Origin: Stomorhina lunata
Taxonomy: Eukaryota > Arthropoda > Insecta > Diptera > Rhiniidae
Assembly (NCBI GenBank): GCA_933228675.1
Contig: OW121744.1
Coordinates: 22,792,036-22,856,035, forward strand
Direction: 5' to 3'
DNA: 64,000 nt
Part shown: positions 12,165 through 60,445 of the stretch, one piece after another
How positions within the stretch are numbered: position 1 is the stretch's first letter
Layout of the letters: each line of letters starts with the position of its first letter
The notes under the pieces: model-generated
Told to the model about the DNA's origin: nothing
Seen by the model: only the letters and a program-made list of their open reading frames with translations
Database searches by the model: none
Translations under genes and position numbers: made by a program

Positions 12165-12635
12165 TATGTTTTAGTACAGCATGTGTAACTACAGCATGAT
12201 TCATATAAAGTATAAGTGTAACAAGAGCATGATTAATATAAAGTATGTGTGTAAATACAGCATAAACCATATAAAGTATATATGTAACAACAGCATGTTT
12301 AATATAATGTATATGTGTAACTACAGCATGTTTCATATAAAGTATAAGTGTAACAAGAGCATGATTTATATAAAGTATATGTGTAAATACAGCATAATCC
12401 ATATAAAGTGTATATGTAACAACAGCATGATTAATATAATGTATATGTGTAACTACAGCATGTTTCATATAAAGTATAATTGTAACAAGAGCATGACTCA
12501 TATAAAGTATATGTGTAATTACAGCATAATCCATATAAAGTATATATGTAACAACAGCATGAATAATATAATGTATATGTGTTACTATAGCATAATTAAT
12601 ATAAAGTATATGTGTAACTACAGCATGGCTCATAT
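12165..12635. repeat. 33-bp tandem repeat with a four-unit higher-order period
   Basis: About 14 units resemble tgtaactacagcatg + attcatataaagtataag. Units alternate as A (gtaactacagcatg), B (gtaacaagagcatg), C (gtaaatacagcata) and D (gtaacaacagcatg with ataatgtatatg), so the longer period is 132 bp. Because 33 is a multiple of three, long open frames exist on both strands (12181-12645 plus, 12112-12663 minus). They are a consequence of the period, not evidence of a gene. Confidence 0.9.
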
Positions 12636-13074: not shown

Positions 13075-13775
13075 TTATCGAAATTTTTTTCCATAGACAA
13101 AATTTTTTTTTATAGAAAAATATATTCTTCTTTAGAAAATTATTATTAAAAAAAAATTTTTAGAAAATTTTTCTAGAGAAAAATATTTTTTAGAAAATTT
13201 TTATTAACAAAAATTTTTCGATAGAAAAATTTTTTTATAGAAATTTTTTTTCAGAAAATTTTTCGATAGAAAAATATTTTTTTAAATTTTCACAGAAAAA
13301 TATTTTTATCGAAAAACTTTATTTACCAAAAAAAAAAATTTATTGAACAATTTTTTAAAGAAAAATTTTCTATATCAAAAATTATTCTATAGCAAAATTT
13401 TTCGTCAAAAATTTTTTTAAAAAAAAAATTTTATAGAAAAATTTCTATAGAAAGATTTTCTATAGAAAAATTTTTGATGAAAAAATTTCTATAGAAAATT
13501 TTTGATGAAAATATTTTCTATAGAAAAATTTTTGATGAAAAAATTTTCTTTAGAAAAATTTTTGATAAAAGAAATTTTTATGAAAAAAATTTCTATAGAA
13601 AAATTTTTGATGAAAAAATTTTCTTTTAAAAAATTGTTGATTTCGATGGAAAATATTTTAAAGAATAAACTTTCTATAGAAAAATTTTTTATGAAAAAAT
13701 TTTCTAGAAAAACTTTTCACGAAAAAATTTTCTATAGACAAATTTTTAATGAAAAAATTTTCTAAAAAGGTTTAT
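13075..13775. repeat. Degenerate left shoulder of the gatga satellite
   Basis: Irregular 28-31 bp units are built from tttttctatagaaaaat and attgatgaaaa words, becoming more regular towards 13440-13770. Confidence 0.75.
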
Positions 13776-13915
13776 CAAAATTTGGGACATCAAACATTTA
13801 ATTAAAAAGTTTTACTGTAGTGTATTGCACTAAGAATCCCAATTTATTACAATTATTTATTATTGTAATAAATAGTTTTTTGATAAAACCAAAAAATGTT
13901 GGTAGGGAAACCAAC

Positions 13916-15545
13916 ATAGAAAAATTTTTGATGAAAAATTTTCTATAGAAAAATTTTTGATGAAAAATTTTCTATAGAAAAATTTTTGATGAAAAATTTT
14001 CTATAGATAAAATTTTTGATGAAAAATTTTCTATAGAAAAATTTTTGATGAAAAATTTTCTATAGAAAAATTTTTGATGAAAAATTTTCTATAGAAAAAT
14101 TTTTGATGAAAAATTTCTATAGAAAAATTTTTGATGAAAAAATTTCTATAGAAAAATTTTTGATGAAAAATTTTTGATGAAAAATTTTCTATAGAAAAAT
14201 TTTTGATGAAAAATTTTCTATAGAAAAATTTTTGATGAAAAATTTTCTATAGAAAAATTTTTGATGAAAAATTTTCTATAGAAAAATTTTTAATGAAAAA
14301 TTTTCTATAGAAAAATTTTTGATGAAAAATTTTCTATAGAAAAATTTTTGATGAAAAATTTTCTATAGAAAAATTTTTGATGAAAAATTTTCTATAGAAA
14401 AATTTTTGATGAAAAATTTTCTATAGAAAAATTTTTGATGAAAAATTTTCTATAGAAAAATTTTTGATGAAAAATTTTCTATAGAAAAATTTTTGATGAA
14501 AAATTTTCTATAGAAAAATTTTTGATGAAAAATTTTCTATAGAAAAATTTTTGATGAAAAATTTTCTATAGAAAAATTTTTGATGAAAAATTTTTGATGA
14601 AAAATTTTCTATAGAAAAATTTTTGATGAAAAATTTTCTATAGAAAAATTTTTAATGAAAAATTTTCTATAGAAAAATTTTTGATGAAAAATTTTCTATA
14701 GAAAAATTTTTGATGAAAAATTTTCTATAGAAAAATTTTTGATGAAAAATTTTCTATAGAAAAATTTTTGATGAAAAATTTTCTATAGAAAAATTTTTGA
14801 TGAAAAATTTTCTATAGAAAAATTTTTGATGAAAAATTTTCTATAGAAAAATTTTTGATGAAAAATTTTCTATAGAAAAATTTTTGATGAAAAATTTTCT
14901 ATAGAAAAATTTTTGATGAAAAATTTTTATAGAAAAATTTTTGATGAAAAATTTTCTATAGAAAAATTTTTGATGAAAAATTTTCTATAGAAAAATTTTT
15001 GATGAAAAATTTTCTATAGAAAAATTTTTGATGAAAAATTTTCTATAGAAAAATTTTTGATGAAAAATTTTCTATAGAAAAATTTTTGATGAAAAATTTT
15101 CTATAGAAAAATTTTTGATGAAAAATTTTCTATAGAAAAATTTTTGATGAACAATTTTCTATAGAAAAATTTTTGATGAAAAATTTTCTATAGAAAATTT
15201 TTTGATGAAAAATTTTCTATAGAAAAATTTTTGATGAAAAATTTTCTATAGAAAAATTTTTGATGAAAAATTTTCTATAGAAAAATTTTTGATGAAAAAT
15301 TTTCTATAGAAAAATTTTTGATGAAAAATTTTCTATAGAAAAATTTTTAATGAAAAATTTCTATAGAAAAATTTTTGATGAAAACTTTCTATAGAAAAAT
15401 TTTTGATGAAAAATTTTCTATAGAAAATTTTTGATGAAAAATTTTCTATAGAAAAATTTTTGATGAAAAGTTTTCTATAGAAAAACTTTTGATGAAAAAT
15501 TTTCTATAGAAAAACTTTTGATGAAAAATTTTCTATAGAAAATGT
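13916..15545. repeat. 29-bp satellite array, gatga type
   Basis: About 55 copies of a 29-bp unit, TTTTCTATAGAAAAA plus TTTTTGATGAAAAA, follow each other with very few differences. Occasional partial units occur (for example near 14165 and 14585). The first half is a perfect palindrome. The two partial-unit events are about 420 bp apart and are followed by the same variant (tttaatgaaaaa), suggesting duplication of multi-unit blocks. Confidence 0.95.
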
Positions 15546-16580
15546 AGAAAATTTTTCGATATAAAAGCTTTTCTATAAAAAAATTTGTTGATATATAAAA
15601 ATTTTTCTATAGAAAACTTGTCGCTATAAAAATTTTTCTACAAAAAATTTTTCTATATAAAAATTTTTCTATAGAAAATTTTTAGATATACAAATTTTTC
15701 GATATAGAAATTTTTCTATAGAAAATTTTAAGATATACAAATTTTTCAATATCGAAATTTTTCTATTGAAAATGATTTTTATATCAACATTTTTCTATAG
15801 AAAATTTTTTTATATCAAAATTTTTCTATAGAAAATTTTTCGATATAAAAATTTTTGATATAAAAATGTTTCTATAGAAAATTTAACGATATAAAAAATT
15901 TTCTATAGAAAATTTTTTTGATATCAAAATTTTTCTATAAAAAATGTTTCGATATAAAAATGTTTCTATAATATTTTTCTATATATATTTTTGACGAAAA
16001 ATTTTATGTAGAAAAATTTTTGATGAAAAATTTTCCATAGAAAAATTTTTGATGAAAAATTTTCCATAGAAAAATTTTTGATAAAAAATTTTCCATAGAA
16101 AAATTTTAGATGAAAAATTTTCCATAGAAAAATTTTTGATGAAAAATTTTCTATAGAAAAATTTTTGAAAAAAAAATTTTCTATAGAAAAATTTTTGATG
16201 GAAAAAATTTCTATAGAGAAATTTTTGATGAAAAAATTTTCTGTAGAAAAATTTTTGGTGAAAAAAATTTTCTATAAAAAAAATTTTGATAAAAAAATTT
16301 TCTATAGAAAAAATTTTGATAAAAAAATTTTCTATAAAAAATTTTTTGATAAAAAAATTTTCTATAAAAAATTTTTTGATAAAAAAATTTTTGATGAAAA
16401 ATTTTTGATGAAAAATTTTGTATAGAAAAAGTAGAAAAATTTTTGATGAAAAATTTTCTATAGAAAAATTTTTGATGAAAAATTTTCTATAGAAAAAGTA
16501 GAAAAATTTTTGATAAAGAAATCTTCTATAGAAAAATTTTCGATGAAAAAATTTTCTACAGAAACATTTTTGATAAAAAA
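15546..16580. repeat. Degenerate right shoulder of the gatga satellite
   Basis: Units first change to a gatata-word type (ttttctatagaaaatttttcgatataaaa) and then return to the gatga type with a ccatag variant. Homogeneity is low. Confidence 0.8.
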
Positions 16581-17500
16581 ATTAATTGTTTAAAATTACG
16601 GGCAACACCAGTTCCTCCAATCATCCCCGTTTTGAATTAAAACTCACTTTTTTAATTAATTTTTTACAATTTTTATTTAAACCAGTTACAAATTCTTTTT
16701 TTTTTTGTGTTTTATTGTTTTTATTTGGTATTTATTTTATTAATTTTTTTTCAATTAATTTTTTACTGATTCTACAGGTGTCATTATTAATTAATTAATT
16801 ATTCATTTATTTAATTATTTAGATTTTCTCTTTTAATTTGTTGTTTCTTTTCAACAATAAACATTTTAAAGTTTTTATTTTATTTTTTCCTTTTTACTTA
16901 AAATTAATATTTGTAATAAATATTTGTCGATTTATTTAAATTTATTTGCAGCATTTTTTTTTTCAAAATCTTAAATTTATATTCAGTTTAATTTTTTTGT
17001 TATTTATTTTTGTTGCTTGTAAAAGTTTTTACTTTTTTCTCTCTGTAATGTGACAAAAGTTACAATTTGATTCGATTTTTATTGATATTTATGTTGATTT
17101 TGAAATTTGATAACTTTTAGTTGAAATTTCGGTATTAATTTCAAATATCATTTGATTTTTTTTTTCAATTTTTCAAAAAGTCTTTAAAATTTTTAATTAA
17201 ATTTGAGAGAGAGTTTGATAGAAAATATAATTTATTTATTAATTTAGAATTTGACTTTTTCTCGTTCTTTTCAAAACTCAATTTTAATTAAAAATTTCTA
17301 AGTTTAGCTATAAATTATTTGTAATAGATTTTTTGTTGTCGTGTTTTACGTATTAAAATTATTTTAAAAATTCTATTTTTTTTTTATATTATTTCAATTA
17401 TTTTATAGTTTTCATTAGTTTTATTAAGCCATTTCCAATTCTATGTAAGAATTTTTCAATTATATTTCAGAGTTTAAAAAATCATAATTTTTTTTATCTA
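16581..17500. other. T-rich spacer between satellites
   Basis: This is homopolymer-rich T/A sequence without genes or obvious elements. The open frame at 16586-16798 is Phe/Leu-rich and has no recognisable domain. Confidence 0.45.
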
Positions 17501-20420
17501 TAGAACAATTTTTATATAACAATTTTTCTTTCAAAATTATTCAATATAAAAACTTTTATATCAAAAATTGTTTGATATGAAAATTTTTCTATACCAAATT
17601 TTTAAAAAAAATTTTCTTTAGAAAATTTTTCTATGGAAAATTTTTTGATATCAACATTTTTTTATAGAAAACTTTTCGATATCAAAATTTTTCTATCGAA
17701 AATTTGTCGATTAAAAATTTTTCTATAGAAGATTTTTCGATGTCAAAATTTTTCTATAGAAAATTTTTTAATAACAAAATTTTTTTATAGAAAATTTTTC
17801 GATATCAAAATTTTTCTATAGAAGAATTTTTGATATCAAAATTTTTTATAGAAAATTTTTTGATATCAAAATTTTTCTAAAGAAATTTTTTAGATACAAA
17901 AATTTTTCTTTAGAAAATTTATTTGATTTAAAAATTTTTCTATTGAAATTTTTTCGATTTAAAAATTTTTCTATAAAAATTTTTTCAATTTAAAAACTCT
18001 TATATAGAAAATTTTTTGATTTAAAATTTTTTCTATAGAAATTTTTTGATACAAAAATTTTTCTTTAGAAAATTTTTTGATATAAAAATTTTTCTATAGA
18101 AAAGTTTTTGATTTAAAATTTTTCTTAAGAACATTTTTCGATACAAAAATTTTCTATAGGAAATTTTTTTACTTAAAGCTTTTTTTAAAAAAAATTTTGG
18201 ATATCAAAATTTTTTCTAAAAGATTTTTTTTAAATTTTTGAAAATTTTTCTATACAAGATTTTTCGATATCAAAATTTTTTATAGAAAATTTTTTATAGA
18301 AATTTTTTGAATACAAAAATTTTTCTTAGAAAATTTATTTGATTTAAAAATTTTTCTATAGAAGATTTTTCGATATCAAAATTTTTTATAGAAAATTTTT
18401 TGATATCAAAATTTTTCTATAAAAATTTTTTGGATTCAAAAATGTTTCTTTAGAAAATTTATTTGATATAAAAATTTTTCTATAAAACTATTTTCGATTT
18501 TAAAATTTTTCTATAGAAAATTTTTTGATTTAACATTTTTTGATATCAATATTTTTATATAGAAAATTTTTCGATATAAAATTTGTCTATAGAAAATTTT
18601 TGATATCAACATTTTTCTATAGAAAATTTTTCGATATAAAAATTTTTCTCCAGAAAATTTTTCGATATAAAAATTTTTCTTTAGAAAATTTTTAATTTTT
18701 TTTTCACATTTTTTTATAAAAAAAATTTTCTATAAACAATTTTTTGACATCGAAATTTTTCTATCAAAAACTTTTCGATATTAAAATTTTTCTATAGAAA
18801 ATTTTTTGATATCAAAATTTTTATATAAAAATTTTTCGAAATAAAAATTATTCTATATCAAAATTTTTCGATATCAAAATTTTTTATAGAGAATTTTTCG
18901 ATATCAACTTTTTTTATAGAAAATTTTTCCATATCAAAATTTTTCTATAGAAAATTTTTGATATCATAATTTTTCTATAGAAAATTTTTCGATATCAAAA
19001 TTTTTCTATAGAAAGTTTTTCGATATCATAATTTTTCTATAGAAAATTTTTCGATATCAAAATTTCTCTATAGAAAATTTTTCAATATCAAAATTTTTCT
19101 ATAGAAAATTTTTCAATATCAAAATTTTTCTATAGAAAATTTTTAAATATACAAATTTTTCGATATCAAAATTTTTCTATCAAAATTTTTCTACAGAAAT
19201 TTTTTTTATATTAAAATTATTCTATAGAAATTTTTTCGATATAAACATTTTTGATATAAAAATGTTTCTATAGAAAATTTTCGATATAAAAATTTTTCTA
19301 TCGAAAATTTTTTTGATATCAAAATTTTTCTATAGAAAATTTTTCGATATAAAAATGTTTCTATAAAAAATTTTTCTATAGAAAATTTATCGATATAAAC
19401 ATTTTTTATAGATAATTTTTCGATATAAACATTTTTCTATAGAAAACATTTCGATATAAAAATTTTTCTACAAATAATTTTTCTATATAAAAATTTTTCT
19501 ATAGAAAATTTTTAGACATAACATTTTTTTTTTTATAAAATAAATTTATTTTATAATTATATCAAAGTTTTTTGAAATAAAAATATTTCGATGTAAAAAT
19601 TTTTCTATAGAAATTTTTTTGTTTAAAAATTTTTCCATGGAAAATTTTTCAATATAAAATTTTTCTATAGAAAATTTTTGGATATAAAATTTTCCTATAG
19701 AAAATTTTTGGATATAAATATTTTTCTATAGAAAATTTTTGGATATAAATATTTTTCTATAGAAAATTTTTGGATGTAAAAATTTTTCTATTAAAAATAT
19801 TTCGATACAAAAATTTTTCTATAGAAAATTATACGATATAAGTATTTTTCCATAAAAAAATTTTGGATATTTTTATTTAGAAAATTTTTGAATATAAAAA
19901 TTTTTCTATTAAAAATTTTTTCTATCAAAAGCTTTTCAATATAAAATTTTTTTATAAACAATTTTTGATATTAGCATTTTTCTATCAGAAATTGTTCGAA
20001 ATAAAATTTTTCTATAGAAAAGTTTTCGATGTCAGAATATTTATATTTTTTTCTATAGAAAATTTTTTGATATACAAATTTTTTTAGAGAAAATTTTTTG
20101 ATATAAAAATTTTTCAATATAAAAATTTTTATATGTAGATAATTTTTCAAATTGTTATAAAAAAATTTTCTTTAGAAATATTTTTTTTATATTAAAAAAT
20201 TTTCCATAGAGAAACTTTCATATCGAAAAATTTTCTATAGAAAAATTTTTATATCGAAAAATTTTGTAAAGAAGAATTTTATATTTTCTATAGAAAAATG
20301 TTTGTATTAAAATAATTTTCTATAAAATTTTTTTTTTATCGAAAAATTTGCTATAGAAAAATTGTTGCATCGAAAATTTTCTATTGAAAGAATTTTGTAC
20401 TAAAAAATTTTCGAAAGAAA
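17500..20420. repeat. Satellite, gatatc type (about 31-bp units, moderately diverged)
   Basis: Units resemble GAAAATTTTTCGATATCAAAA followed by TTTTTCTATA. Each unit contains two palindromic words, GATATC and TTTCTATAGAAA. The array is long but heterogeneous, with variants tcgatataaa, tttgatatcaa and ttggatataaa grouped in blocks. Confidence 0.9.
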
Positions 20421-20555
20421 TTAATTTTAGTTGAACCAGAATTTATGTTGATGGTCGTGGGTTCGAGTCGGGCTCAGGTTCATGTCATAAATTATTTTTT
20501 TAATTTATGATTTTTAAATTAGATGAATAAATTTTAGGAATACTGAAAAAACTAT

Positions 20556-20624
20556 GTGACACTTAGCAGTGTGGAATGCTGCATTTTCTGTCCCGCTACG
20601 GACTTCATCAGCACACTGTGTCAC
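20556..20624 (-). ncRNA. Hammerhead-ribozyme-like motif, left arm
   Basis: On the minus strand, CUGAUGA is at 20611-20605 and GAAA at 20588-20585. Stem II is GUCC/GGAC. After GAA comes a self-complementary stem III (AATGCAGCATT), then C17 at 20574, the predicted cleavage site. Stem I pairs CAGTGTG with CACACTG (7 bp) and, beyond a small bulge, GUGACA with UGUCAC (6 bp). Ends lie in stem I, that is a type I layout, the usual one in animal genomes. Odd feature: the first pair of stem II is A and A instead of G-C. Confidence 0.6.
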
Positions 20625-21093
20625 CAACTGTTAGATGCCAGTAGTTAAGATCATCTATTTAACTGAATTCTTAAGCGAAATTGAAAACGAGAATTATATT
20701 AACACTCATTTCTATTTCACCTATGACCATATGATCGATTCAGTTAGACGAACTTATCCACCATAGTTTTTTTCCTTTATGTTTTGTATTCCTATCCTTT
20801 ATTAATCTACATTTACTTTGTACTTTAACCAACTATCAGCTGGTAATGAAGACAAAGATTTTTGTTTTGACAAGTTTCTGTTTATTCTTTTACGTTAATG
20901 CAAATTTGAATTTAGTATCAGGATAGGAATACAAAACATAAAGGAAAAAAACTATGGTGGATAAGTTCGTCTAACTGAATCGATCATATGGTCATAGGTG
21001 AAATAGAAATGAGTGTTAATATAATTCTCGTTTTCAATTTCGCTTAAGAATTCAGTTAAATAGATGATCTTAACTACTGGCATCTAACAGTTG

Positions 21094-21162
21094 GTGACAC
21101 AGTGTGCTGATGAAGTCCATAGCGGGACAGAAAATGCAGCATTCCACACTGCTAAGTGTCAC
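21094..21162 (+). ncRNA. Hammerhead-ribozyme-like motif, right arm
   Basis: This is the mirror copy of the motif at 20556-20624, now on the plus strand. Stem I 5' strand is 21094-21106, CUGAUGA 21107-21113, stem II 21114-21129, GAAA 21130-21133, palindromic stem III to 21143, C17 at 21144 and stem I 3' strand 21145-21162. The only difference from the left copy is in the stem II loop, where a change does not affect pairing. Activity is predicted from the fold only. Confidence 0.6.
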
Positions 21163-21274
21163 ATAGTTTTTTCAGTATTCCTAAAATTTATTCATCTAAT
21201 TTAAAAATCATAAATTAAAAAAATAATTTATGACATGAACCTGAGCCCGACTCGAACCCACGACCATCAACTAA

Positions 21275-21345
21275 AAAATTTTCTATATCAAAAAGTTTTT
21301 ATATTGAAAGATTTTCTATAGAAAAATTTTTATCAAAAAATAACA
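21275..21345. repeat. Satellite fragment between two foldback elements
   Basis: A few units of the TTTTCTATAGAAAA family (aattttctatatcaaaaagtttttatattgaaa) separate the foldback elements at 20447-21271 and 21371-21630. Confidence 0.7.
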
Positions 21346-23255: not shown

Positions 23256-24770
23256 TGTATTTTATAGAAAAATTTCTATATCAAAAAATTTTCTATAGAA
23301 ACATTTTTTATTGAAAATTTTTCAAAAAAAAAAAATTTTATATCGAAAAATTTTCTACAAAAAAAAATTTTATATTGGAAAATTCTCTATAGAAAAATTT
23401 TTAAATGCAAAATTTTTATATAAAAAATTTTGTATAGAAATTTTTTTATATGAAAAATGTTTATATTAAAAGTTTTTATGTCAAACAATTTTCTATAACA
23501 AAATTTTTATATCGAAATTTTTTTTTGTATAGAAAAATTTTTGTATTGAAAAATTTTAATATCGAAAAATTTTGTACAGAAAAATTTTTTATAAAAAAAT
23601 TTTATATCTAAAAAATTTCTATCAAAAAAATTTTAAATCGAAGATTTTTCTATTAAAATTTTCTACAGAAAAATTTTTTATATTGAAAAATTTTCTATAG
23701 AAAAATTATTATATCGGAAAATTTCTAAAAAAAAATTAATTGAAAAATTTTCTATAGAAAAATTTTTACATCGAAAAATTTTCGATGCAAAAATTTGTAT
23801 ATCGAAAAGTTTTTGTATAGAAAAATGCTTATATTAAAAAATTTTCTATTAAATGTTTTTATATCAAGAAATTTTCTAAGAAATATCGAAAATTTTTTTA
23901 TATCGAAAATTTTCTAAAAAAAATCATATCGAAAAATTTTCTATGAAAAAAGTTTTGTAGCGAAAAATTTTTTATAGACAAATTTGTATATAGAAAAACT
24001 TTCTACAGACAAATTTTGCATAGATTTTCTATGGAAAAAATTTTATAAAGAAAATTTTTCTAAAGAAAAATTTTTACATAGAAAAAATGTCTATAAAAAA
24101 ATTTTAATATAAAAAAATTTTCTATTGAAAAATTTTTATATAGAAAAATTTTATATAGAAATATTTTTATATAGAAAAATTTTTATAAGGAAAATTTTTA
24201 TATAGAAAAATTTTGCATAGAAAAATGTTTACATTGAAAATTTTTCTATAGAATAATTTTTTCCTACAAAATTTTTCTATAGACAAATTTTTTTCAAGAA
24301 AATTTTTCTATAAACAAATTTTTTTCAAGAAAGTTTTTCTATAGAAAAAATTTTTTGAAAAAAATTTTTGTATAGAAAAATTTTGTTATAGAAAAAAAAT
24401 TTTTCTATAATAGAAAAATTTTCTATAAAAAAATTTTTTATAAAGAAAATTTCGATAAAAAATTTTTCTATAGAAAAATTTTCTATAAAAAAAATTTTTC
24501 TATAGAAAAATTTTCTATAAAAAAATTTTTCTATTGAAAAATTTTCTATAAAAAAATTTTTCTGTAGAAAAATTTTCTATAAAAAATTTTTCTATAGAAA
24601 AATTTTCTATAAAAAAAATTTTTCTATAAAAAAATTTTCTATAAAAAAATTTTCCTTAAAAAATTTTTTTATAAAAAAATTTTCTTTAAAAAAATTTTCT
24701 ATAAAAAAAATTTCTTTAGAAAAATTGTCTATAAAAAAAATTCGATAGAAAAAATTTCGATAAAAAATTT
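23256..24770. repeat. Degenerate TTTTCTATAGAAAA satellite
   Basis: Irregular units with words tatatcgaaaaa and tatagaaaaa run through most of the interval. From about 24456 they tighten into ttttctataaaaaaa / tttttctatagaaaa alternation. The last ~300 bp is repeated almost exactly at 25796-26088. Confidence 0.85.
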
Positions 24771-24810
24771 TTCAAAAAATAACAAAATAGTCGGGATGTA
24801 AATATTATTC

Positions 24811-25790: not shown

Positions 25791-25795
25791 AAAAA

Positions 25796-26690
25796 ATTTT
25801 TCTATAGAAAAATTTTCTATAAAAAAAAATTTTCTATAGAAAAATTTTCTATAAAAAAATTTTTCTATTGAAAAATTTTCTATAAAAAAATTTTTCTGTA
25901 GAAAAATTTTCTCTAAAAAATTTTTCTATAGAAAAATTTTCTATAAAAAAAATTTTTCTATAAAAAAATTTTCTATAAAAAAATTTTCCTTAAAAAAATT
26001 TTCTATAAAAAAATTTTCTTTAAAAAAATTTTCTATAAAAAAAATTTCTTTAGAAAAATTGTCTATAAAAAAAATTCGATAGAAAAATTTTCTATAAAAA
26101 AAATTTCTATAGAAAAATTTTCTATAAAAATTTTTTTCTAAAAAAAATTTTCGAAAAAAATATTTTCCTATAGATTTTTTTCTGCAGAAAGAATTTTCAA
26201 AAAAAAAAGTTTTTTGATAGAAATATTTTTCTATAGATTTTTTTTGTAGAAAATTTTTATAAAAAATTTTTTATAGAAATATTTTCTATAGAAAAATTTT
26301 TGATAAAAAATTTTCTACAGAAAAATTGTTGATAAATAAATTTCCCAGAAAAATGTTTGATAAAAAAAGTTTTCTATACAAAAATTTTGATAAAAATATT
26401 TTCTAAAAAAAAATTTTTATAACGATAAATTTTCTACAGAATAATTTTTATAACGAAAAATTTTCTACTGAAAAATTTTTATATCGAAAAATTTTTTATA
26501 GAAAAATTTTTAAATCGAAAAATTTTCTATGGAAAAATTGTTATATTGAAAAATTTCCTATAGAAAAATTTGTACATCAAAAATTTTCTATAAAAAAAAT
26601 TTTATATCGAAAAAATTGCTACAGGAAGGAAGTAGAAATTTTAATATAGAGAAATTTTTGTTTAAAAAAATTTGTATAAAAGAACTATTC
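25796..26690. repeat. Satellite continuing after the compound foldback
   Basis: Its first ~290 bp (25796-26088) repeats 24456-24768 in direct orientation almost base for base, including private variants (ctattgaaaaat, ctgtagaaaaat, tccttaaaaa). After about 26100 it becomes degenerate. Confidence 0.85.
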
Positions 26691-28129: not shown

Positions 28130-30245
28130 GTTTTTCTATAGAAAATTTTCTTATCAAAAATTTTCTACAGAACATTTTCTTATCAAAACTTTTTCTATAG
28201 AAAATTATTTTATCAAAAATTTTCTATAGAAAATTTTCTTATCAAAACTTTTTCTATAGAAAATTTTTTTATCAAAAATTTTCTATAGAAAATTTTTTTA
28301 TCAAAAATTTTCTATAGAAAATTTTTTTATCAAAAATTTTCTATAGAAAATTTTTTTATCAAAAATTTTCTATAGAAAATTTTATTATCGAAAATTTTCT
28401 ATAGAAAATTTTTTTATCAAAAATTTTCTATAGAAAATTTTTTTATCAAAAATTTTCTATAGAAAATTTTTTTATCAAAAATTTTCTATAGAAAATTTTT
28501 TTATCAAAAATTTTCTTTAGAAAATTTTTTTATCAAAAATTTTCTATAGAAAATTTTTTTATCAAAAATTTTCTATGGAAAATTTTTTTATCAAAAATTT
28601 TCTATAGAAAATTTTTTTATCAAAAATTTTCTATAGAAAATTTTTTTATCAAAAATTTTCTATAGAAAATTTTTTTATCAAAAATTTTCTATAGAAAATT
28701 TTTTTATCAAAAATTTTCTATAGAAAATTTTTTTATCAAAAATTTTCTATAGAAAATTTTTTTATCAAAAATTTTCTATAGAAAATTTTTTTATCAAAAA
28801 TTTTCTATAGAAAATTTTTTTATCAAAAATTTTCTATGGAAAATTTTTTTATCAAAAATTTTCTATAGAAAATTTTTTTATCAAGAAGTTTTCTATTGAA
28901 AATTTTTTTATCCAAAATTTTATATAGAAATTTTTTGTATTCAAAATTTTATATAGAAAATTTTTTTATCAAAAATTTTTCTGTAGAAAATTTTTCATCA
29001 AAAATTTTTTGTATAGAAAATTTTTCATTAAAAATTTTTCTGTAGAAAATTTTTCATCAAAAATTTTTCTATAGAAATTTTTTCATATTTTGCTATAGAA
29101 AATTTTTCACCAAAAGTTTTTCTATAGAAAATTTTTTAATCAAAATTTTTTAATCAAAAATTTTTCTATATGTAATTTTTTAATCAAAAATTTTTCTATA
29201 AAATTTTTTTTTTGTCAAAAATTTTTCTATAAAAATATTTCTATCAAAAATTTTGCTATAGAAAAATATTTTTTTCGAAAATTTTTCTTTTGAAAAACAT
29301 TTTAATGGAAAATGTTTTTATAGAAATTTTTTTTTGAGAAAATTTTTAAAAGAAAAATATTTTTATAGAAACATTTTTGATAAAAATATTTTTCTTTAAA
29401 AATTTTTCTATAAAAATATTTTTCTGTGATAATTTTCTCAACAAAAAAATAAAAAAAATTTCTATACAAAATTTTCGATAAAAATTTTTTTCTAAAGAAA
29501 AATTTTAGATAAAAATAGTTTTCTATCGCAAAACTTTCGATATAAATATTTTTGTAAAATGTTTGTATAGAAAATTTTTTTTGAGAAGATTTTCATAGAA
29601 AAATATTTTTAGAGAAAAAGTTTCTATTAAAATAATTTTTATCGAAAAATTTTTGATAAAAAATTTTCCATAGCGAAATTTTTGATAAAAAATTTTGTAT
29701 AAAATAATTTTTTATAAAAAAAAAATTATACAGAAAAATTTTTAAGAAAATAATTTTCAATAAAAAAAAGTTTCTTTAGAAAATTTTTCTGTAAAAAATT
29801 TTTTTTTTTATCAATTTTTTTTTACACAAAATTTTTTATCAAAAATTTTTCTATGGAAATTTTTTTATCAAAAATTTTCGATAAAAATTATTTTTTATAG
29901 AAATTTTTTCTATAAAAATATTTTTCTATGAAAATTTTTTCAAGAAAAAATTTTCTATAAATTTTTTTTTATCAAAAAATTTTCTATAGAAAATTTTTTT
30001 AGAAAAAATATTTCCATCGAAAATTTTGCTATAGAAACATATTTTTAACGAACATTTTTGGTTAGAAAAAAAATTTTATCGAACATTTTTTTGAGAAAAT
30101 TTTTACAGAAAAATATTTTTATAGACAAATTTTCCATAGAAAATTTTTCTGTAAATTTTTTTTTATCAATTTCTATAGAAAATCTTTTATCATATTTATA
30201 GAAAATTTTTTTATTAAAAATTTTTTTATCCAACATTTTTTTGTA
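28130..30245. repeat. Satellite, ttatc type: regular 29-bp array then degenerate
   Basis: From about 28140 to 28920, some 27 copies of TTTTTTTATCAAAAA + TTTTCTATAGAAAA (29 bp) follow with few changes. From 28920 to 30245 units drift (atcaaaaatttttctgtaga, ttgagaaaattttt). Confidence 0.9.
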
Positions 30246-30250
30246 GAAAA

Positions 30251-30505
30251 CCAAAATGAGGTTTAATCAGGCTTGAGTTCATTTTACTTTCAAATTATTA
30301 ATTTTGAAAATTTGAAAAGTAATTGTGGAGAAAAACTGAAAAAATTATTTTTGAACGCGGCTCAGTGGATTGCAATTTCTGTCCCGCCACAGGACGTCAT
30401 CAGCACTTAGCGCCCTCGACCACAGTCAAGTTGTCAAATTGCAGAGATAAACATCAAAATTAATAATTTGAAAGTTAAATGAACTCAAGCCTGATTAAAC
30501 ATAAT
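30251..30505. mobile_element. MITE with ~45-bp terminal inverted repeats, carries a hammerhead-like motif
   Basis: The left end gtttaatcaggcttgagttc and the right end gaactcaagcctgattaaac are exact inverses. Pairing continues through tttcaaattattaatttt / aaaattaataatttgaaa. The centre holds the hammerhead-like motif of the next entry. Partial copies at 33463-33588 (left half, plus) and about 38388-38475 (left half, inverted) lack most of the motif. No coding. Confidence 0.8.
30357..30414 (-). ncRNA. Hammerhead-ribozyme-like motif in the 30.25-kb MITE
   Basis: On the minus strand: CUGAUGA at 30403-30397, stem II GUCC/GGAC within 30396-30380, GAAA at 30379-30376, palindromic stem III ATTGCAAT, C17 at 30368, then CACUGAGCC. 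Stem I pairs AGUG with CACU next to the core and, past one mismatch, GCU with AGC. The first pair of stem II is C and A, again not Watson-Crick, as in the 20.5-kb family. The shared layout in a different element supports a real ribozyme lineage, but activity is untested. Confidence 0.55.
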
Positions 30506-30509
30506 TTTT

Positions 30510-31320
30510 AAAAACCAAAATGTTTAAAAAAAAAATTCTACTGAAAAATTTTCTATAGATAATTTTTTTGATCAAAAATATTTCTTTCGGAAATTTTGCT
30601 ATAGAAAAATATTTTGGTCAAAAAATAATTTTTATCGCAAAATTTTCCAAAGAAAAATGTTTTTATCAAAAATTTTTCTGTAAAAAAATATTTGTGTCGG
30701 AAAGATCGACAAAAATATTTTTCTGTGATAATTTTCTCAAAAAAACAAAAATTTTCTATAGAAAAATTTTCAATAGAAATATTTTAAATAAAAAAATGTT
30801 TCTATAGAAAATCTTTTTTTGAGAACATTTTCATTCGAAAAATATTTTTATAGAAAAAATTTCTATAAAAATAATTTTTAACAAAAAATTTTTGATAAAA
30901 AAAATTTCCATAGAGAAATTGTTGATAAAAATTTATTATAAAAAAAATTTATAAGAAAACTTTTTGATAAAAAATTTTTGAGAAAAAATTTTCAGTAGAA
31001 AAATTTTTGAGAAAAAAAAAATTCTATAGAACATTTTTTACATAAAAGTTTTTATCAAAATTTTTCCAAAAAAATTTGTGTTATTAAAAAACTTTCTTAA
31101 GAAATTTTTTTTTTATAAAAAATATTTCCATCGAAAATTTTGCTATAGTAAAGTATTTTTAACGAAAGTATTTTTAAGGAAAAAAAATGTTATCGAAAAT
31201 TTTTATTGAGAAAATTTTCACAGAAAAATATTTTTATTGAAAAATTTTCTATAGAAAATTTCTGTATTACAAATTTTTCTACAGAAAATTTTTTTTATCA
31301 AACATTTTCTGTAAAAAAAA
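30510..31320. repeat. Degenerate satellite
   Basis: Continuation of the TTTTCTATAGAAAA family, with diverged words gataaaa, tttgagaaaa and atcaaaaat. No homogeneous block. Confidence 0.75.
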
Positions 31321-32959: not shown

Positions 32960-34540
32960 TTTCTATGAGATTTTCTTTGAAAATTTTGTATCGAAAAATT
33001 TTTCCCTAAAAATTGTTAATCTATAAAATCTAAAAATTTTAGATCAAAAATTTTAAACCAAAAATTTTAGATCAAAAATCACAAACTTGTTGTAGAAAAT
33101 TTTTGGTAGAAAATTTTCAGTATAAAATATACTGAAAATTTTCTACCAAAAATTCTCTACAACAAATTTTTGTTATAAAATTTTTTATATCAAATTTTTT
33201 AGACGAAAATTTCTTAAAAAAAATTTTATAACGAAAATTTTCTATAAAAAAAATTTTGCACCCAAAAACTGTGTACCCGAAATTTTCTTAAAAAAAAAAC
33301 GACAGTTTTCTAGGAAAACTTCTATACCGAAAATTTTTTTAGAAAAAATGTTATACAGAAAATTAAGCCATGTTTTTAACAAAACTTTCATATTAAAAGT
33401 TTTTTTTTTAATGAAAATTTTCTATAAAAAATTTTCTACAGAAAATTTTCTGAAAAATTAGGTTTAATCAGGCTTGAGTTCATTTAACTTTCAAATTATT
33501 AATTTTGAAAATTTGAAAAGTAATTGTTTAGAAAAACTGAAAAAATTATTTTTGAACGCGGCTCAGTGGATTGCAATTTCTGTAAAAAATTTTTTATAAA
33601 AATTTTGGTATCGAAAATTTTCTATTAAAAATTTTTATATACAAATTTCTCTACAAAAGTTTTTATACCAAAAATTTTTTATAACAAATTTCAAATCAAA
33701 AATTTTCTATTAAAATTTTTTTAACGAAATTTTCTATAAAAAATTTTTAACGAAATTTTCTATAAATAATTTTATATCGAAAATTTTCTATTTTATACAG
33801 AAAATTTTTTATAAACGAAATTTTTGAAGAAAAATTTCTATCAAAAATTTTATATCAATAAGTTTCTATAAAAAATTTTATATCGAAAATTTTCTATCAA
33901 AAATTTTATATCGAAAATTTTCTATAAAAAATTTTATGTTGAAAATTTTCTATTGAAAATTTTCTTTTAAAAATTATCTACCGAAAATTTACTATAAAAA
34001 ATTCAAGAAAAATTTTCTATAGAAATTTTTATAACAAAAATTTTTTATTAAAAATTTTATAACGAACATTTTTTATAAAAGAATTTTATAACGAAAATTT
34101 TTTAAACGAAAATTTTCTCTAAAAAATTTTCTACCGAAATTTAAAAAATAAAAAATTTTATAATGAAAATTTTCCAAGAAAGATTTTCTATAGAATTTTT
34201 TATAACAAAAATTTTTTATAAAAAAATTTTCCAAGAAAAATTTTCTATAGGAACTTTTATAACGAAAGTTTTTTATAAAAATAAATTAAAACGAAAATTT
34301 TCTCTAAAAAATTTTCTAACGAAAATTTTTTATAAAAAATTTTAAAACGAAAAAAAAATTTTCTAACGAAAATTTTTTACAAAAATATTTTAAAACGAAA
34401 ATTTTCTACAAAAAATTTTATAACGAAAATTTTTTATAAAAAAATTTTCCAAGAAAAATTTTCTACAGAAATTTTTATATTAAAAATTTTCTATAAAAAA
34501 TTTTATAATAAAAATTTTTAAATTTTATACCAAAAATAAA
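32960..34540. repeat. Degenerate satellite with tataacgaaaatttt words
   Basis: Units resemble attttctataaaaaattttataacgaaa and are irregular. The satellite is interrupted at 33463-33588 by a half copy of the 30.25-kb MITE. Around 33085-33160 a small inverted pair, gaaaattttcagtataaaat / atactgaaaattttc, forms a hairpin. Confidence 0.8.
33463..33588 (+). mobile_element. Truncated copy of the hammerhead-bearing MITE (left half)
   Basis: It matches 30253-30381 from gtttaatcaggcttgag to attgcaatttctgt and then changes abruptly into satellite. The break falls inside the hammerhead-like motif, keeping stem III and GAAA but losing stem II and CUGAUGA. Confidence 0.8.
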
Positions 34541-38109: not shown

Positions 38110-38585
38110 TTAAACAAATTAAGATTTTTATTCTATAGAAAATTTTTATATCAAAAATGTTTCTATATTTTTTTATAAAAATTTTTTCTATAAAAAATTT
38201 CTTTATCAAAAATTTTTCAATAGAAATTTTTTTATCAAAAATTTTTGTATATAAATTTTTTTTATCAAAAATTTTTTTTATAGAAAATTTTCTTCCATAA
38301 TTTTTCAAAACAAACAAAAATTCTATAGAAAAATTTTTGATAAAAAAATTTTCTATAGAAAAATTTTTGTAAGAAAATAAATAATTTTTTCAGTTTTTCT
38401 CCATAATTTACTTTCCAATTTTCAAAATTAATAATTTGAAAATTAAAATGAACTCAAGCCTGATGAAACCTAATTTTTCAGAAAATTTTTTATGAAAAAA
38501 TTTTTGATAAAAAAATTTTATATACAAAAATTTTCTATAGAAAAATTTTTGTATAGAAATAATTTTGATAAAAAATTGTTTAATT
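38110..38585. repeat. Satellite fragments with an inverted MITE fragment
   Basis: Diverged units with atcaaaaattttt and tctatagaaaaatt surround 38388-38475. That segment is the inverted left end of the 30.25-kb MITE (ttttcaaaattaataatttg ... gaactcaagcctgatgaaac) without the ribozyme-like centre. Confidence 0.7.
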
Positions 38586-38759: not shown

Positions 38760-39825
38760 TCTAGCTGTTAGAGTGTCTCAAAAATAAAAAAAAAATCAAT
38801 AGCGTAAAATTTGCGCCACAGTGTATTTTTAACACCTAATACCTAAAACTTAAACTGTGGATATAGACAGTGAATAATGCAGAAACGTGTTCATACATTT
38901 TGTATTTAATAATAATTTTGCAAATGTAGTCCTCTCATTCACGAAAATTGTATATTTTATATATTCTAAAGGATCACTATATGGTTAATTTTTCAATAAT
39001 CATATATACATATGTGATTTTGACAGTTTTAAAATTTTGTCCTCTGTTGAAGATTTTTCGGATTTGCCCATATGGTAGTGAAGGGTATAAAAAAATTCCC
39101 CAATTTTTCTGATAATCTTTAGCTAAAACCCTTCAATCTTGAGGTTAATAGTTTTTAATAAAAAGCTCCTAAAAGTATGCAATACAATTTATTTCTTCGT
39201 ATTATCAGAAATTATTTGAATACCAGAATAATGGCCACTTAATAAAAAAGTCTTTAATAAAAATAAAATTTAATTTCGCTTATACAACATTCATTCATTC
39301 ATACAACATTCCTCATTCATAAACGATTAATAAAATTATCAAAGGCTAATTGTAGGAGTTTTGTATGAAATATTTGATTTATAGGTTTATTTTTCGTTTA
39401 TGAATGTTATGTGTTATGTTATTTATTTCGAACCCCCTTAAAGTATGCTACAAAATTTCCTGCAATTTTAGAAATCCTTATATAATAAAAAAAAGTTCTT
39501 GATTGTTTTTGATACTAATTTTGGGTAAATTTTTAATTTAAATTGCAATTTTTCAAATAAAAATCTTTTATCTTGAGCTTAATGGTTTTTAATAAAATTT
39601 TTTGCTTCCGCATTAATTATATAAAATTTATACTTTTATTTATAAAATTATTTATTTCGACTATCCTAAAAGTGTGTAACAAAATTTTCTGCAATTTTAG
39701 ATATGTCAATACTCGTATGGCAAAATCATAATCAATAAAAATTCCCGAATGTTTCTGATAATAATTTTGGGTAAATTTTTGAATTGCAATTTAAACTTGT
39801 TTGTTTCTGTTTGTTTTTGTTTTTT
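38760..39825. repeat. Diverged precursor units of the ~270-bp repeat
   Basis: From about 39110, three degenerate units carry the same order of words as the array at 39826-41205 (tctgataat, agctaaaa.cctt, cctaaaagtatgc, caatttat.tctt). Motif copies are at 39165-39190, 39432-39458 and 39662-39689. 38760-39110 shows nothing firm. Confidence 0.55.
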
Positions 39826-41205
39826 CAGTCAATAAAAATTCCCGATTGTTTTTGATAATAATTTTGGGTAAATTTTTGAATGGCAATTCTTTAGCTAAAA
39901 GCCTTTAAGCTAAATAGTTTTTATTTTAAACCTCCTAGAAGTATGCAATACAATTTGTTTCTTTGAATTATTGGAAATTATAATTGAATATTACAATTTT
40001 GGCCAATTATAAAAATATACCTAATAAAAATAAATAAAATTAGGAATTAAATTTTTTTTTTGTAAAAAACAGTTTTCTTTTTGTTTTTGTTTTTTCAGTC
40101 AATAAAAATTCCTGATTGTTTTTGATAATAATTTTGGGTAAATTTTTGAATGGCAATTCTTTAGCTAAAAGCCTTTAAGCTAAATAGTTTTTATTTTAAA
40201 CCTCCTAGAAGTATGCAATACAATTTGTTTCTTTGAATTATTGGAAATTATAATTCAATATTACAATTTTGGCCAATTATAAAAATAAATAAAATTAGGA
40301 ATTACATTTTTTTTTTGTAAAAAACAGTTTTCTTTTTGTTTTTGATTTTTCAGTAAATAAAAATTCCCGATTGTTTCTGATAATAAATTTGTATAAATTT
40401 TTGAATTGCAATTCTTTAGCTAAAAGCCTTTAAGCTAAATAGTTTTTATTTTAAACCTCCTAGAAGTATGCAATATAATTTGTTGCTTTGAATTATTGGA
40501 AATTATAATTGAATATTACAATTTTGGCCAATTATAAAAATATACCTAATAAAAATAAATAAAATTAGGAACTAAAAATATTTTTTTTTTGTAAAAAACA
40601 GTTTTCTTTTTGTTTTTGATTTTTCAGTAAATAAAAATTCCCGATTTTTTCTGATAATAAATTTGTATAAATTTTTGAATTGCAATTCTTTAGCTAAAAG
40701 CCTTTAAGCTAAATAGTTTTTATTTTAAACCTCCCAGAAGTATGCAATACAATTTGTTGCTTTGAATTATTGGAAATTATAATTGAATATTACAATTTTG
40801 GCCAATTATAAAAATATACCTAATAAAAATAAATAAAATTAGGAACTAAAAATATTTTTTTTTTGTAAAAAACAGTTTTCTTTTTGTTTTTGATTTTTCA
40901 GTAAATAAAAATTCCCGATTGTTTCTGATAATAAATTTGTGTAAATTTTTGAATTGCAATTCTTTAGCTAAAAGCCTTTAAACTTAATAGTTTTTATTTC
41001 AAACCTCCTAGAAGTATGCAATACAATTTGTTTCTTTGAATTATTGGAAATTATAATTGAATATCAGAATCTTGGCCAATTATAAAAATGTACCTAATAA
41101 AAATATATAAAATTAGGAAAAATATTTTTTTTTTTTTAAGATTTTAACTCGCTTCTATGTCTCTGTAAAAAACTGTTATCTGTTTGTTTTTGCTTTTTTT
41201 AGTTT
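39826..41205. repeat. Five tandem copies of a 255-275 bp unit
   Basis: Units start at about 39826, 40096, 40351, 40625 and 40899, each with cagt(c/a)aataaaaattccc. Each unit contains one cctcc(t/c)agaagtatgcaat, that is one copy of the dispersed motif with a g in place of an a. Units 3-5 are more alike than units 1-2. The last unit ends next to the likely 3' end of the gene on the minus strand. Confidence 0.9.
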
Positions 41206-45800: not shown

Positions 45801-46262
45801 AACTATTTTTCTACAGAAATTTTTTTCTACAGAAAATTTTTTTATCAAACATTTTTTTGAAGAAAACTTTTCTATACAAAATTTTTTTATCAAAAATTTT
45901 TCTATAGAAAATTTTTTTTATCAAAGATTTTTCTATACAAAATTATTTTTATCAAAAATTTGTCTATAGAAATTTTTTATCAAAAATTTGTCTATAAAAA
46001 CTTTTTTGGTCAAATTTATTCTATAAAAGATTTTTTTATAGAAAATTTTTTATCAAAAATTTTTTTATAGAAAATTTTTGCAAGAAAAATTAAAAAAATA
46101 AATATTTTTGAAGAAGATTTTTCTTTAGAAAAATATTTTTATTGAAGATTTTTTTACAGAAAAATATTTTTATCGAAAATTTTTCTGTAGAAAAATATTT
46201 TTTAAAAAGGGTTTTTTAAAAATTTTTATCGAAAATTTTTCTAAAATTTGTCTATAGAAAAA
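45800..46262. repeat. Degenerate left shoulder of the taacg satellite
   Basis: Units with tttttatcaaaaatttttctata, then tttttatcgaaaatttttct, grade into the regular array. Confidence 0.8.
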
Positions 46263-47810
46263 TATTTCTAACGAAAATTTTTCTATAGAAAAATATTTCT
46301 AACGAAAATTTTTCTATAGAAAAATATTTCTAACGAAAATTTTTCTATAGAAAAATATTTCTAACGAAAATTTTTCTATAGAAAAATATTTCTAACGAAA
46401 ATTTTTCTATAGAAAAATATTTCTAACGAAAATTTTTCTATAGAAAAATATTTCTAACGAAAATTTTTCTATAGAAAAATATTTCTAACGAAAATTTTTC
46501 TATAGAAAAATATTTCTAACGAAAATTTTTCTATAGAAAAATATTTCTAACGAAAATTTTTCTATAGAAAAATATTTCTAACGAAAATTTTTCTATAGAA
46601 AAATATTTCTAACGAAAATTTTTCTATAGAAAAATATTTCTAACGAAAATTTTTCTATAGAAAAATATTTCTAACGAAAATTTTTCTATAGAAAAATATT
46701 TCTAACGAAAATTTTTCTATAGAAAAATATTTCTAACGAAAATTTTTCTATAGAAAAATATTTCTAACGAAAATTTTTCTATAGAAAAATATTTCTAACG
46801 AAAATTTTTCTATAGAAAAATATTTCTAACGAAAATTTTTCTATAGAAAAATATTTCTAACGAAAATTTTTCTATAGAAAAATATTTCTAACGAAAATTT
46901 TTCTATAGAAAAATATTTCTAACGAAAATTTTTCTATAGAAAAATATTTCTAACGAAAATTTTTCTATAGAAAAATATTTCTAACGAAAATTTTTCTATA
47001 GAAAAATATTTCTAACGAAAATTTTTCTATAGAAAAATATTTCTAACGAAAATTTTTCTATAGAAAAATATTTCTAACGAAAATTTTTCTATAGAAAAAT
47101 ATTTCTAACGAAAATTTTTCTATAGAAAAATATTTCTAACGAAAATTTTTCTATAGAAAAATATTTCTAACGAAAATTTTTCTATAGAAAAATATTTCTA
47201 ACGAAAATTTTTCTATAGAAAAATATTTCTAACGAAAATTTTTCTATAGAAAAATATTTCTAACGAAAATTTTTCTATAGAAAAATATTTCTAACGAAAA
47301 TTTTTCTATAGAAAAATATTTCTAACGAAAATTTTTCTATAGAAAAATATTTCTAACGAAAATTTTTCTATAGAAAAATATTTCTAACGAAAATTTTTCT
47401 ATAGAAAAATATTTCTAACGAAAATTTTTCTATAGAAAAATATTTCTAACGAAAATTTTTCTATAGAAAAATATTTCTAACGAAAATTTTTCTATAGAAA
47501 AATATTTCTAACGAAAATTTTTCTATAGAAAAATATTTCTAACGAAAATTTTTCTATAGAAAATATTTCTAACGAAAATTTTTCTATAGAAAAATATTTC
47601 TAACGAAAATTTTTCTATAGAAAAATATTTCTAACGAAAATTTTTCTATAGAAAAATATTTCTAACGAAAATTTTTCTATAGAAAAATATTTCTAACGAA
47701 AATTTTTATATAGAAAAACATTTCTAACGAAAATTTTTATATAGAAAAACATTTCTAACGAAAATTTTTCTGCAGAAAAACATTTTAGAGAACATTTTTT
47801 AAAGAAAAAT
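46263..47810. repeat. 31-bp satellite array, taacg type, nearly invariant
   Basis: About 46 successive copies of ATTTCTAACGAAAATTTTTC + TATAGAAAAAT (31 bp) are almost identical from 46264 to 47700. One unit has a single-base deletion near 47561. The last three or four units (47701-47810) decay. This is the most homogeneous array in the window, so its expansion must be recent, or the assembly may have collapsed or replicated it. Confidence 0.95.
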
Positions 47811-48620
47811 ATTTCGATCGAAAATGTTTCTTATTTGGTTTATCCCAAAACTATGCTACACAAATGCTGCTGAAATTGGTCCCATTTTTATAATAGAAAT
47901 TATTAATATTAAAAATTTTTCTTACAGAATAAAGTTGTATATAAGATTCGGCATAGCCAAATATAGCCCTCTAATAGAATATAACCCCTGTTTTAGACTA
48001 CATAACTTCCCCCTTAAAGAATTAATGAAAATCAATTTATAATTTTCTTTACTAATATATAAAAGCTCCTTTGAGTTTTTTTTTTGATTTCACTCTCAAA
48101 ACTTTTGCTAACACTTAAAGTTGCCAACTCCTTAATAACAATAATTGCTAACAAATTGGCAACTTAAACAAAAGATAAACAAAAAACCATTTAACAATTA
48201 AGTTAAACAATTAAAACACTTTTTTTGTGTTACCACAAAAAAAAAGAAGCAAAAACTCAAATAAAACATGTATTAAGTCAATTTCATAACCATTTAACAA
48301 TATTTCAGTTATCGTAATTGGCCATATCAAAAGGATATTACAGGAAATGAGAAAAAAAAGAACAAACTATTCAAAAACTTTTATAACAAAAGTGATATAG
48401 TTTGCCATAGTCTGTATTTTGAACAAAGGGAGTTGTCCGTACACTTTAGATTTTGTAACTTTCAAATTTTTAAATAATGCAATACAAAAATGTAATTAGA
48501 TTTTGGGCTACACATCATTAAAAATATGTAGGAATTCTTATAATGAAAAAAAGATTCTTTATTAACCAGTTCTAGCTATTAGTCAGGGTTCAAACAAAAT
48601 TCAGACAGGAGATTTAGATA
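47811..48620. other. Intronic spacer with an element tail
   Basis: Near 47935-47975 the text ttgtatataagattcggcatagccaaatatagccctcta resembles the palindromic tail (cggc.tagccg.ata) that ends ATACCCTTCACCA-type elements. A weak motif copy, atcccaaaactatgctacac, is at 47842-47861. The open frame 47824-48042 has no domain. Confidence 0.4.
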
Positions 48621-60040: not shown

Positions 60041-60445
60041 ATAACACAGATGTATTTTCTCACAAATGCAACCTTTCGACGTAAAATTTAAACAATTCGT
60101 TATCACGTGAAAAATATACAAACAAACACAAAAGTACATTTTTTTAATTTTTTACGTACGAGTATCGATTACAATATTTTTGTCTCATCAATAAAACATG
60201 CAATTTACATGACAGAGCCACTGAAAAGCTTTCGCCTTTAACATTGCAACCACATATCACTCCCACTCTCCTTCATTGTCTGTCACAAACAATTTCCATT
60301 CTTTTGATGACGATATCAACAGGAAGGAAATGCTTATTTGCTACTTTGTTAAATGTCAATGAACAAAGAAAGGAAACAATAAGAAAAATGGAAAAATGAA
60401 AATGTAAACCGAGAAAATGTAAAATAAAATTTATATAAAATTTAC
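60041..60445 (-). other. 5' part of the large intron
   Basis: Begins with the donor G|GTAAAT at 60445 on the minus strand. The reading frame continues open to 60273 by chance. The residues it would add (KFYINFILHFLGLHFHF...) are a second hydrophobic stretch unlike the upstream protein, which favours splicing. Confidence 0.6.

Follow-up and report, generated by a model that had tools for sequence, protein, structure and literature searches.

Protein-less hammerhead repeats of the fly Stomorhina lunata resemble retrozymes and carry the end signature of Penelope elements

Several described elements come close to the repeats reported here. Metazoan non-LTR retrozymes share with them a small size, a low GC content, tandem repetition, a type I hammerhead and target-site duplications, as far as the available text of PMC7229834 goes; it gives monomers of 150–450 bp, described as tandem, and the word "inverted" is absent from its main text. 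Plant LTR retrozymes are comparable in being non-coding and in their spread by a hammerhead together with a helper element (available text of PMC4918200) but have type III hammerheads and long terminal repeats (available text of PMC7229834). Penelope-like elements share head-to-head and tandem copies, a tail of 30–40 bp on one arm and target-site duplications, and further a hammerhead motif, a preference for AT-rich DNA and a start-site hairpin (PMC3846280 and PMC11167929, in the parts available). In rotifers, inverted Penelope copies are reported to lie mostly head-to-head, one repeat sometimes carrying a 31-bp tail, and to have duplications of 8–10 bp (PMC3846280), while the available account of the Anolis protein states that it cleaves and extends both target strands and uses two adjacent start sites for reverse transcription in or near an AC-rich stem loop, the interval between them being the genomic tail of 30–40 bp; no difference in start site was observed between the strands (PMC11167929). 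A role of Penelope in the spread of animal retrozymes was previously just suspected: the consulted part of PMC7229834 treats Penelope elements as a strong candidate, on the grounds that they coexist with retrozymes and have hammerheads and tandem copies in common with them.

The window, i.e., the whole stretch of 64,000 nucleotides of Stomorhina lunata DNA that was analysed, contains two mirror-image insertions (elements 1 and 2) and two truncated fragments of such repeats, which belong to two families, A and C. The features are listed below in window coordinates; monomer positions are counted from the predicted cleavage site, and S and L denote two classes of outer end.

20399–20412, no strand: left target-site duplication of element 1, ACTAAAAAATTTTC
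20413–20920, minus strand: left arm of element 1, family A, monomer 218–564 followed by 1–164, outer end at the L site
20432–20482, minus strand: hairpin of the left-arm tail, TGAACC/GGTTCA in the RNA sense, from the sequence and the fold of the family A monomer
20556–20624, minus strand: hammerhead-like motif, predicted cleavage 20574/20573, from descriptor, pair check and covariance model
20920–21271, plus strand: right arm of element 1, monomer 341–564 followed by 1 to about 129, outer end at the S site
21094–21162, plus strand: second hammerhead-like motif, predicted cleavage 21144/21145, from descriptor, pair check and covariance model
21270–21283, no strand: right target-site duplication of element 1
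30247–30258, no strand: left target-site duplication of element 2, AAAACCAAAATG, 12 bp
30259–30510, minus strand: element 2, family C, mirror-image with unequal arms (minus arm ending at about 30457, plus arm beginning at about 30454)
30359–30415, minus strand: family C hammerhead-like motif, C.A at 10.1/11.1, predicted cleavage 30368/30367, from the descriptor
30511–30522, no strand: right target-site duplication of element 2
33451–33583, minus strand: truncated family C fragment ending at monomer position 118 (S site)
38379–38480, plus strand: truncated family C fragment, monomer 17–118, 100% identical, ending at the S site

Element 1 is a palindromic non-coding insertion (20413–21269) that carries both family A motifs, 20556–20624 and 21094–21162. 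Its inverted repeat of 357 nt is 99% complementary around a 121-nt spacer, and the arms meet at about 20920. The duplication is given as 12–14 bp because the innermost AC also fits the right end of the element, and the end of the right arm is ambiguous by a few bases since the duplication resembles the element. Among the open frames of at least 110 amino acids in the window, none lies inside 20413–21269 or 30259–30510; the frame with reverse transcriptase and GIY-YIG domains of an autonomous Penelope element is absent from the elements, whose monomers measure just 463 and 563 nt. Taken alone, element 1 would fit a DNA transposon with long terminal inverted repeats (foldback or MITE) that carries the motif by chance, given its inverted repeat, spacer and target-site duplication. 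Fixed terminal repeats are hard to reconcile with tandem copies on either side, with arms of different length, with centres that vary and with the two outer ends described below, and a transposon of this type, rejected for the variability of arms, centres and outer ends, has next to no chance of being the source. A tRNA-derived element was likewise discarded, as ARAGORN found no tRNA; the outer part of the element presumably resembles a B box.

The motif at 20556–20624 reads in the RNA sense on the minus strand. It was pointed out in the original prediction, and the parts listed there (core, stem II, GAAA, stem III, C17 and stem I) are all present: a CUGAUGA core, stem II GUCC/GGAC with a 6-nt loop, GAAA, a stem III of 4 bp with the A15.1–U16.1 closing pair, and a stem I made of 7 bp, a CUAAG bulge and 6 bp, the pairs of which were checked. 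C17 is at 20574, which places the predicted cleavage at 20574/20573. Hammerhead position numbering is used throughout. A motif descriptor matched the window three times, twice in the arms of element 1 and once at 30403 on the minus strand, and twice in 300 dinucleotide shuffles of the window. The window motifs thus show the conserved core and three stems of a type I hammerhead with stem I open, and positions 10.1 and 11.1 of the 20556–20624 motif are A and A, as had been stated, in place of the G-C pair of type I hammerheads.

The minimum-free-energy fold of the 70-mer (−21.8 kcal/mol) is other than the hammerhead, and for the 69-mer the two folds stand at −21.8 vs −18.7 kcal/mol, the other fold being favoured by about 3 kcal/mol; folded in isolation, the motifs reach no notable z-score (−1.7, −1.5 and +0.9). 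As circular RNAs, the monomers gave z-scores of −6.1 for family A (strong) and −1.9 for family C (weak). A covariance search with Rfam, proposed with the original prediction as its check, returned no hammerhead, either in the whole window at gathering scores or in region 20400–21300 at E up to 10, so the threshold was not reached. The matches that Rfam listed were mostly miRNA families, ascribed to the long inverted repeat and the AT-rich satellite. The miss is weak evidence and not decisive, because Rfam also found no hammerhead in the Penelope loci L078, L079, L081 and L082 of the same genome, despite the hammerhead-like motifs there. A covariance model built from 16 family C copies, with the window copy 30354–30415 among them, recovered both window family A motifs (E 5e-8 and 8e-7) and had no match in nine Penelope loci. 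Self-cleavage of the retrozyme hammerhead is given here as a prediction.

The genome (728 Mb in 104 contigs) was searched with the core pattern CTGATGANGTCCN{3,9}GGACNGAAA, in which 10.1 and 11.1 were left open. It matched 2,978 times, 1,510 on the forward and 1,468 on the reverse strand, while the reversed control gave 0 matches and a pattern search of viral contigs also gave 0. This pattern was used because the 69-nt motif had no match when it served as the query of a DNA search by a method that skips very common words. The places sampled were the first 100 of the 2,978 listed, a non-random set lying entirely in the first 30 Mb of contig C1, plus the two window elements. Two families were found among them: family A (as at 20556), with monomers of 563–566 nt and one of 578, and family C (as at 30359), with monomers of 463 nt. 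As MAFFT misplaced stem I between the families, no pair counts were taken from that alignment. In a family A monomer (L037, 1560–1610), the loop of the tail hairpin contains GACTCGAACCCACGACC, which we take to be the complement of a tRNA B-box-like stretch. The idea of a type I hammerhead in a mobile element was borne out in part: it holds as regards mobility (2,978 matches, two families and target-site duplications) and the hammerhead-like motif itself, and went unsupported by Rfam. The original prediction missed the copy at 21094–21162, the 357-nt inverted repeat and the three family C insertions or fragments of the window and, more importantly, the mirror-image insertions with their Penelope end signature.

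The variant core that had been suggested is shared by the copies. In 104 cores (fetched loci and window), positions 10.1/11.1 were C.A in 57, A.A in 46 and T.A in 1, so that N.A replaces G-C in 104/104 and G-C occurs in 0/104. The genome pattern with a direct G-C pair and without the two extra bases had 0 matches and that with the first extra base alone had 1, in a search that requires the GUCC/GGAC stem, so that other stems would escape it. Since all 104 cores carry N.A and the G-C pattern is without matches, the oddity is a family trait, and the best description of it is the usual GUCC/GGAC stem with a single base added on either side. The Penelope loci L078–L082 have hammerhead-like motifs in which, as read from the sequence, a single base is added and only on the 5′ side, while L083–L085 show no hammerhead by the pattern CTGANGA..GAAA. 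A close parallel is HHR_Amex2 of the axolotl, a retrozyme type I hammerhead that is also mismatched at the base of stem II, with U.U where the Stomorhina lunata motifs have A.A or C.A; according to the accessible portion of the report, it cleaves by 22% in an hour as a monomer and much better as a dimer (PMC7229834). Because a published U.U hammerhead is active, G-C at 10.1/11.1 appears to be usual rather than strictly required.

These results bear on whether the motif could be a relic that lost catalysis owing to A.A or C.A, in an element spreading through Penelope machinery without self-cleavage. Such a relic would agree with N.A in all the cores, with a minimum-energy fold that differs from the hammerhead and with the finding, in the available part of PMC11167929, that ribozyme cleavage is dispensable for Penelope insertion in vitro, which also counts against a model based on cleavage. 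Against it, the remaining core positions are retained in two families that differ elsewhere, albeit in copies found by a pattern that demanded the core and left decayed ones unsampled, and the axolotl ribozyme with its U.U mismatch is cleavage-competent in the text available (PMC7229834). We consider the relic unlikely and keep the motif as a candidate ribozyme of the retrozyme type.

The architecture of the insertions was examined by mapping monomers onto 63 sequences (61 loci and 2 window pieces), with BLAST pieces below 75% identity and clusters shorter than 100 nt dropped and with 13 of the 30 initially cut loci excluded because longer fetched regions covered them. Among the resulting 72 clusters, 38 run minus-then-plus, 18 are plus only, 16 are minus only and 0 run plus-then-minus; hence 34/72 are in one orientation alone, including a minus-only cluster (L043) that is truncated at its locus boundary. 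At the first 100 of the 2,978 listed places, oppositely oriented neighbours up to 1.5 kb apart gave the same picture with 13 minus-plus pairs and 1 plus-minus pair (L045), the latter being two separate insertions. Tandem copies reach 4.6 monomers in one arm of L031. The outer ends fall into two classes, S and L, 36–38 nt apart, which hold 90 of the 102 called ends and lie near 128 (S) and 166 (L) in family A and near 118 (S) and 155 (L) in family C; the classes were defined after the ends had been inspected, and calls in AT-rich flanks are ambiguous by several bases. When both ends were called (32 clusters), 23 clusters had one S and one L end, one had two L ends (L039), one had two S ends (window element 2, which departs from the one-of-each pattern) and 7 had an end outside the classes. 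One S plus one L end thus occurs in 23/25 classifiable insertions vs 12.5 expected (P about 1e-5, with classes set after inspection). The flanks of L039 (contig C1:11452000–11455400) are mirror images, and both of its ends are of the L class; since the flanks mirror each other too, it may be a later inverted duplication or an assembly error.

Target-site duplications were evaluated from the longest string shared by the two flanks, which averaged 12.8 nt vs 8.5 nt in mismatched flanks (permutation p 5e-5) and reached 9 nt or more in 24/25 insertions vs 47% of 600 mismatched pairs, a high background explained by the many flanks that lie in similar satellite. Many printed flanks are AT-rich satellite of the TTTTCTATAGAAAA type, resembling the surroundings of the window elements, and L035 and L027 show clear duplications in ordinary flanks. 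The retrozymes seem to insert preferentially into AT-rich satellite. In the window, arrays of AAAATTTTTCTATAGAAAA-like AT-rich units occupy 13105–20280, 23263–24773, 25791–26617, 28131–30150, 33577–34518, 45805–47831 and 54522–55188.

How the mirror image arises is constrained by the centres and by sequence variants. At the junction, the two arms end at independent monomer positions (5/38 junctions within 30 nt vs 4.4 expected, P 0.45), and private variants are shared between the arms, with a Jaccard index of 0.45 within 26 insertions vs 0.11 in 470 cross pairs. Independent centres together with shared private variants fit two separate cDNAs made from one RNA species and then joined. Another possibility is that the element is the same and the mirror image results from self-priming or template jumping on antisense RNA, one continuous cDNA folding back, as was proposed for rotifer Penelope elements in 2013 (PMC3846280, in the part available); an antisense template predicts the head-to-head order in that source, and variants common to both arms of an insertion also agree with a single cDNA. 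By our reasoning such folding back would produce matched arm starts and a short loop, unlike the independent centres, and one S plus one L end per insertion does not follow from it by itself, so that we give this route a rather small chance.

Twin priming also yields head-to-head order and target-site duplications, and a LINE-type enzyme whose second target strand primes internally, leaving an inverted 5′ part, would share these two features with the insertions. Two fixed outer ends 36–38 nt apart, one per arm, are not expected of a LINE enzyme, and neither is a hairpin held in common with Penelope elements that show the same arrangement; this origin is very improbable. The retrozymes do show the traits of Penelope-type integration, namely head-to-head copies, a 36–38-nt tail on one arm and a target-site duplication.

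Penelope elements are present in the same genome. A Pfam search for GIY-YIG domains gave 2 loci, one of which encodes a Penelope-type endonuclease and served as a better query; the other looks like SLX1, presumably. The Penelope-type frame has relatives in Haematobia irritans and Eurosta solidaginis, and one relative carries PF26215. Its endonuclease domain has at least 145 matches in the genome, at least 11 of them in open frames of 830–864 amino acids, the count being a lower bound because 150 of 162 candidates were scored. In the L078 frame, the reverse transcriptase domain was identified by Pfam and the GIY-YIG part by the endonuclease-domain search, not by the Pfam scan. Neighbouring scored matches within 6 kb, after same-strand pieces up to 300 bases apart were merged, comprised 24 minus-plus, 0 plus-minus, 8 minus-minus and 3 plus-plus pairs. 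The longer arm (tail) was on one side in 3/3 Penelope insertions compared, partly by eye: that of L078 extends 38 nt beyond its own internal tandem copy, that of L079/L080 measures about 40 nt and that of L083/L084 roughly 30–38 nt (by eye, with ends ambiguous by several bases). At L077 (4730–4864, contig C2), a 135-nt palindrome, 92% self-complementary, lies at the start of a truncated Penelope endonuclease frame.

A hairpin around the S site is common to the two retrozyme families and six Penelope loci. The retrozyme stems are TGAACC/GGTTCA in family A and TGAACT/AGTTCG in family C, and the Penelope stems are GACCT/AGGTC in L078, L079, L081, L084 and L085 and TGACCA/TGGTCA in L082. In families A and C and in the three Penelope insertions with both arms seen, S lies in the hairpin loop and L past the stem, and AGC follows the left side of the stem in 8/8 sequences. 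When the eight sequences were aligned, 94% of cells were paired vs 16–48% when the alignment was slid, a figure that leans towards the stem because each sequence had been trimmed to stem ends picked by eye; 2/6 pairs changed on both sides, a covariation score reached by 4/500 shuffles. The start-site hairpin is thus shared with the Penelope elements in these eight sequences, with stem ends set by eye.

We consider it quite probable, then, that the motif belongs to a retrozyme-like, protein-less repeat that is copied and inserted in trans by Penelope proteins, as the sampled insertions are often mirror-image and bear the end signature of the genome's own Penelope elements. The repeats combine tandem copies and a type I hammerhead without long terminal repeats, as in non-LTR retrozymes, and the term retrozyme-like is used because monomers of 463 and 563–566 nt exceed the descriptive range of 150–450 bp. 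They differ from metazoan retrozymes in their repeat lengths (463 and 563 nt), head-to-head order, two-site ends and N.A at the base of stem II, and from Penelope-like elements in having no protein gene and hammerhead stems I–III of the retrozyme type, not of the minimal Penelope type.

In the pathway that we propose, multimeric transcripts would be processed to monomers by hammerhead cleavage and then closed into circles. The tail hairpin would be bound by a Penelope protein, which would also cut both strands of AT-rich DNA, and reverse transcription would start from both 3′ ends on the same RNA species, once at S and once at L. Tandem copies would arise when copying continues round a circle or along a multimer, and an end-to-end joining of both cDNAs in the middle would complete the insertion. 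Two-headed copying of this kind would account for the minus-plus order, for an S start on one arm and an L start on the other, for the independent centre and for the variants that the arms share. A stricter version, which we put forward tentatively and with rather less than even confidence, holds that each insertion is one concerted event, in which a Penelope dimer sits on a single circular retrozyme RNA, its protomers start at the inner and outer site on opposite strands, both circle, the ends are joined and the tail tells the arm made by one protomer from that made by the other.

Both retrozymes and Penelope copies in head-to-head order were already known; what appears new against the literature at hand is the pairing of a protein-less hammerhead repeat with an end signature and a hairpin of the Penelope kind, and no description of head-to-head or tail-bearing retrozymes turned up in the consulted part of the open-licence PubMed Central literature. 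Given the end signature and the shared start-site hairpin, mobilisation can be put to a direct test in the purified Penelope system already published. The rule of one arm per site and the independent centres also suggest in concrete terms how Penelope elements could come by their head-to-head structure and optional tail.

Other repeats of the window include a higher-order tandem array of 33/66/132 nt at 12181–12635, a 274-nt tandem array of five copies at 39804–41134 and a 12-nt minisatellite, CTATGTCTTAGT (TRF), with about 159 copies and 95% matches at 57443–59347, which leaves several frames open over hundreds of codons. A further open frame of 886 amino acids (60273–62933, minus strand) has no Pfam domain and is conserved in flies; its searched part is 94% identical to proteins from the blow flies Cochliomyia hominivorax and Calliphora vicina.
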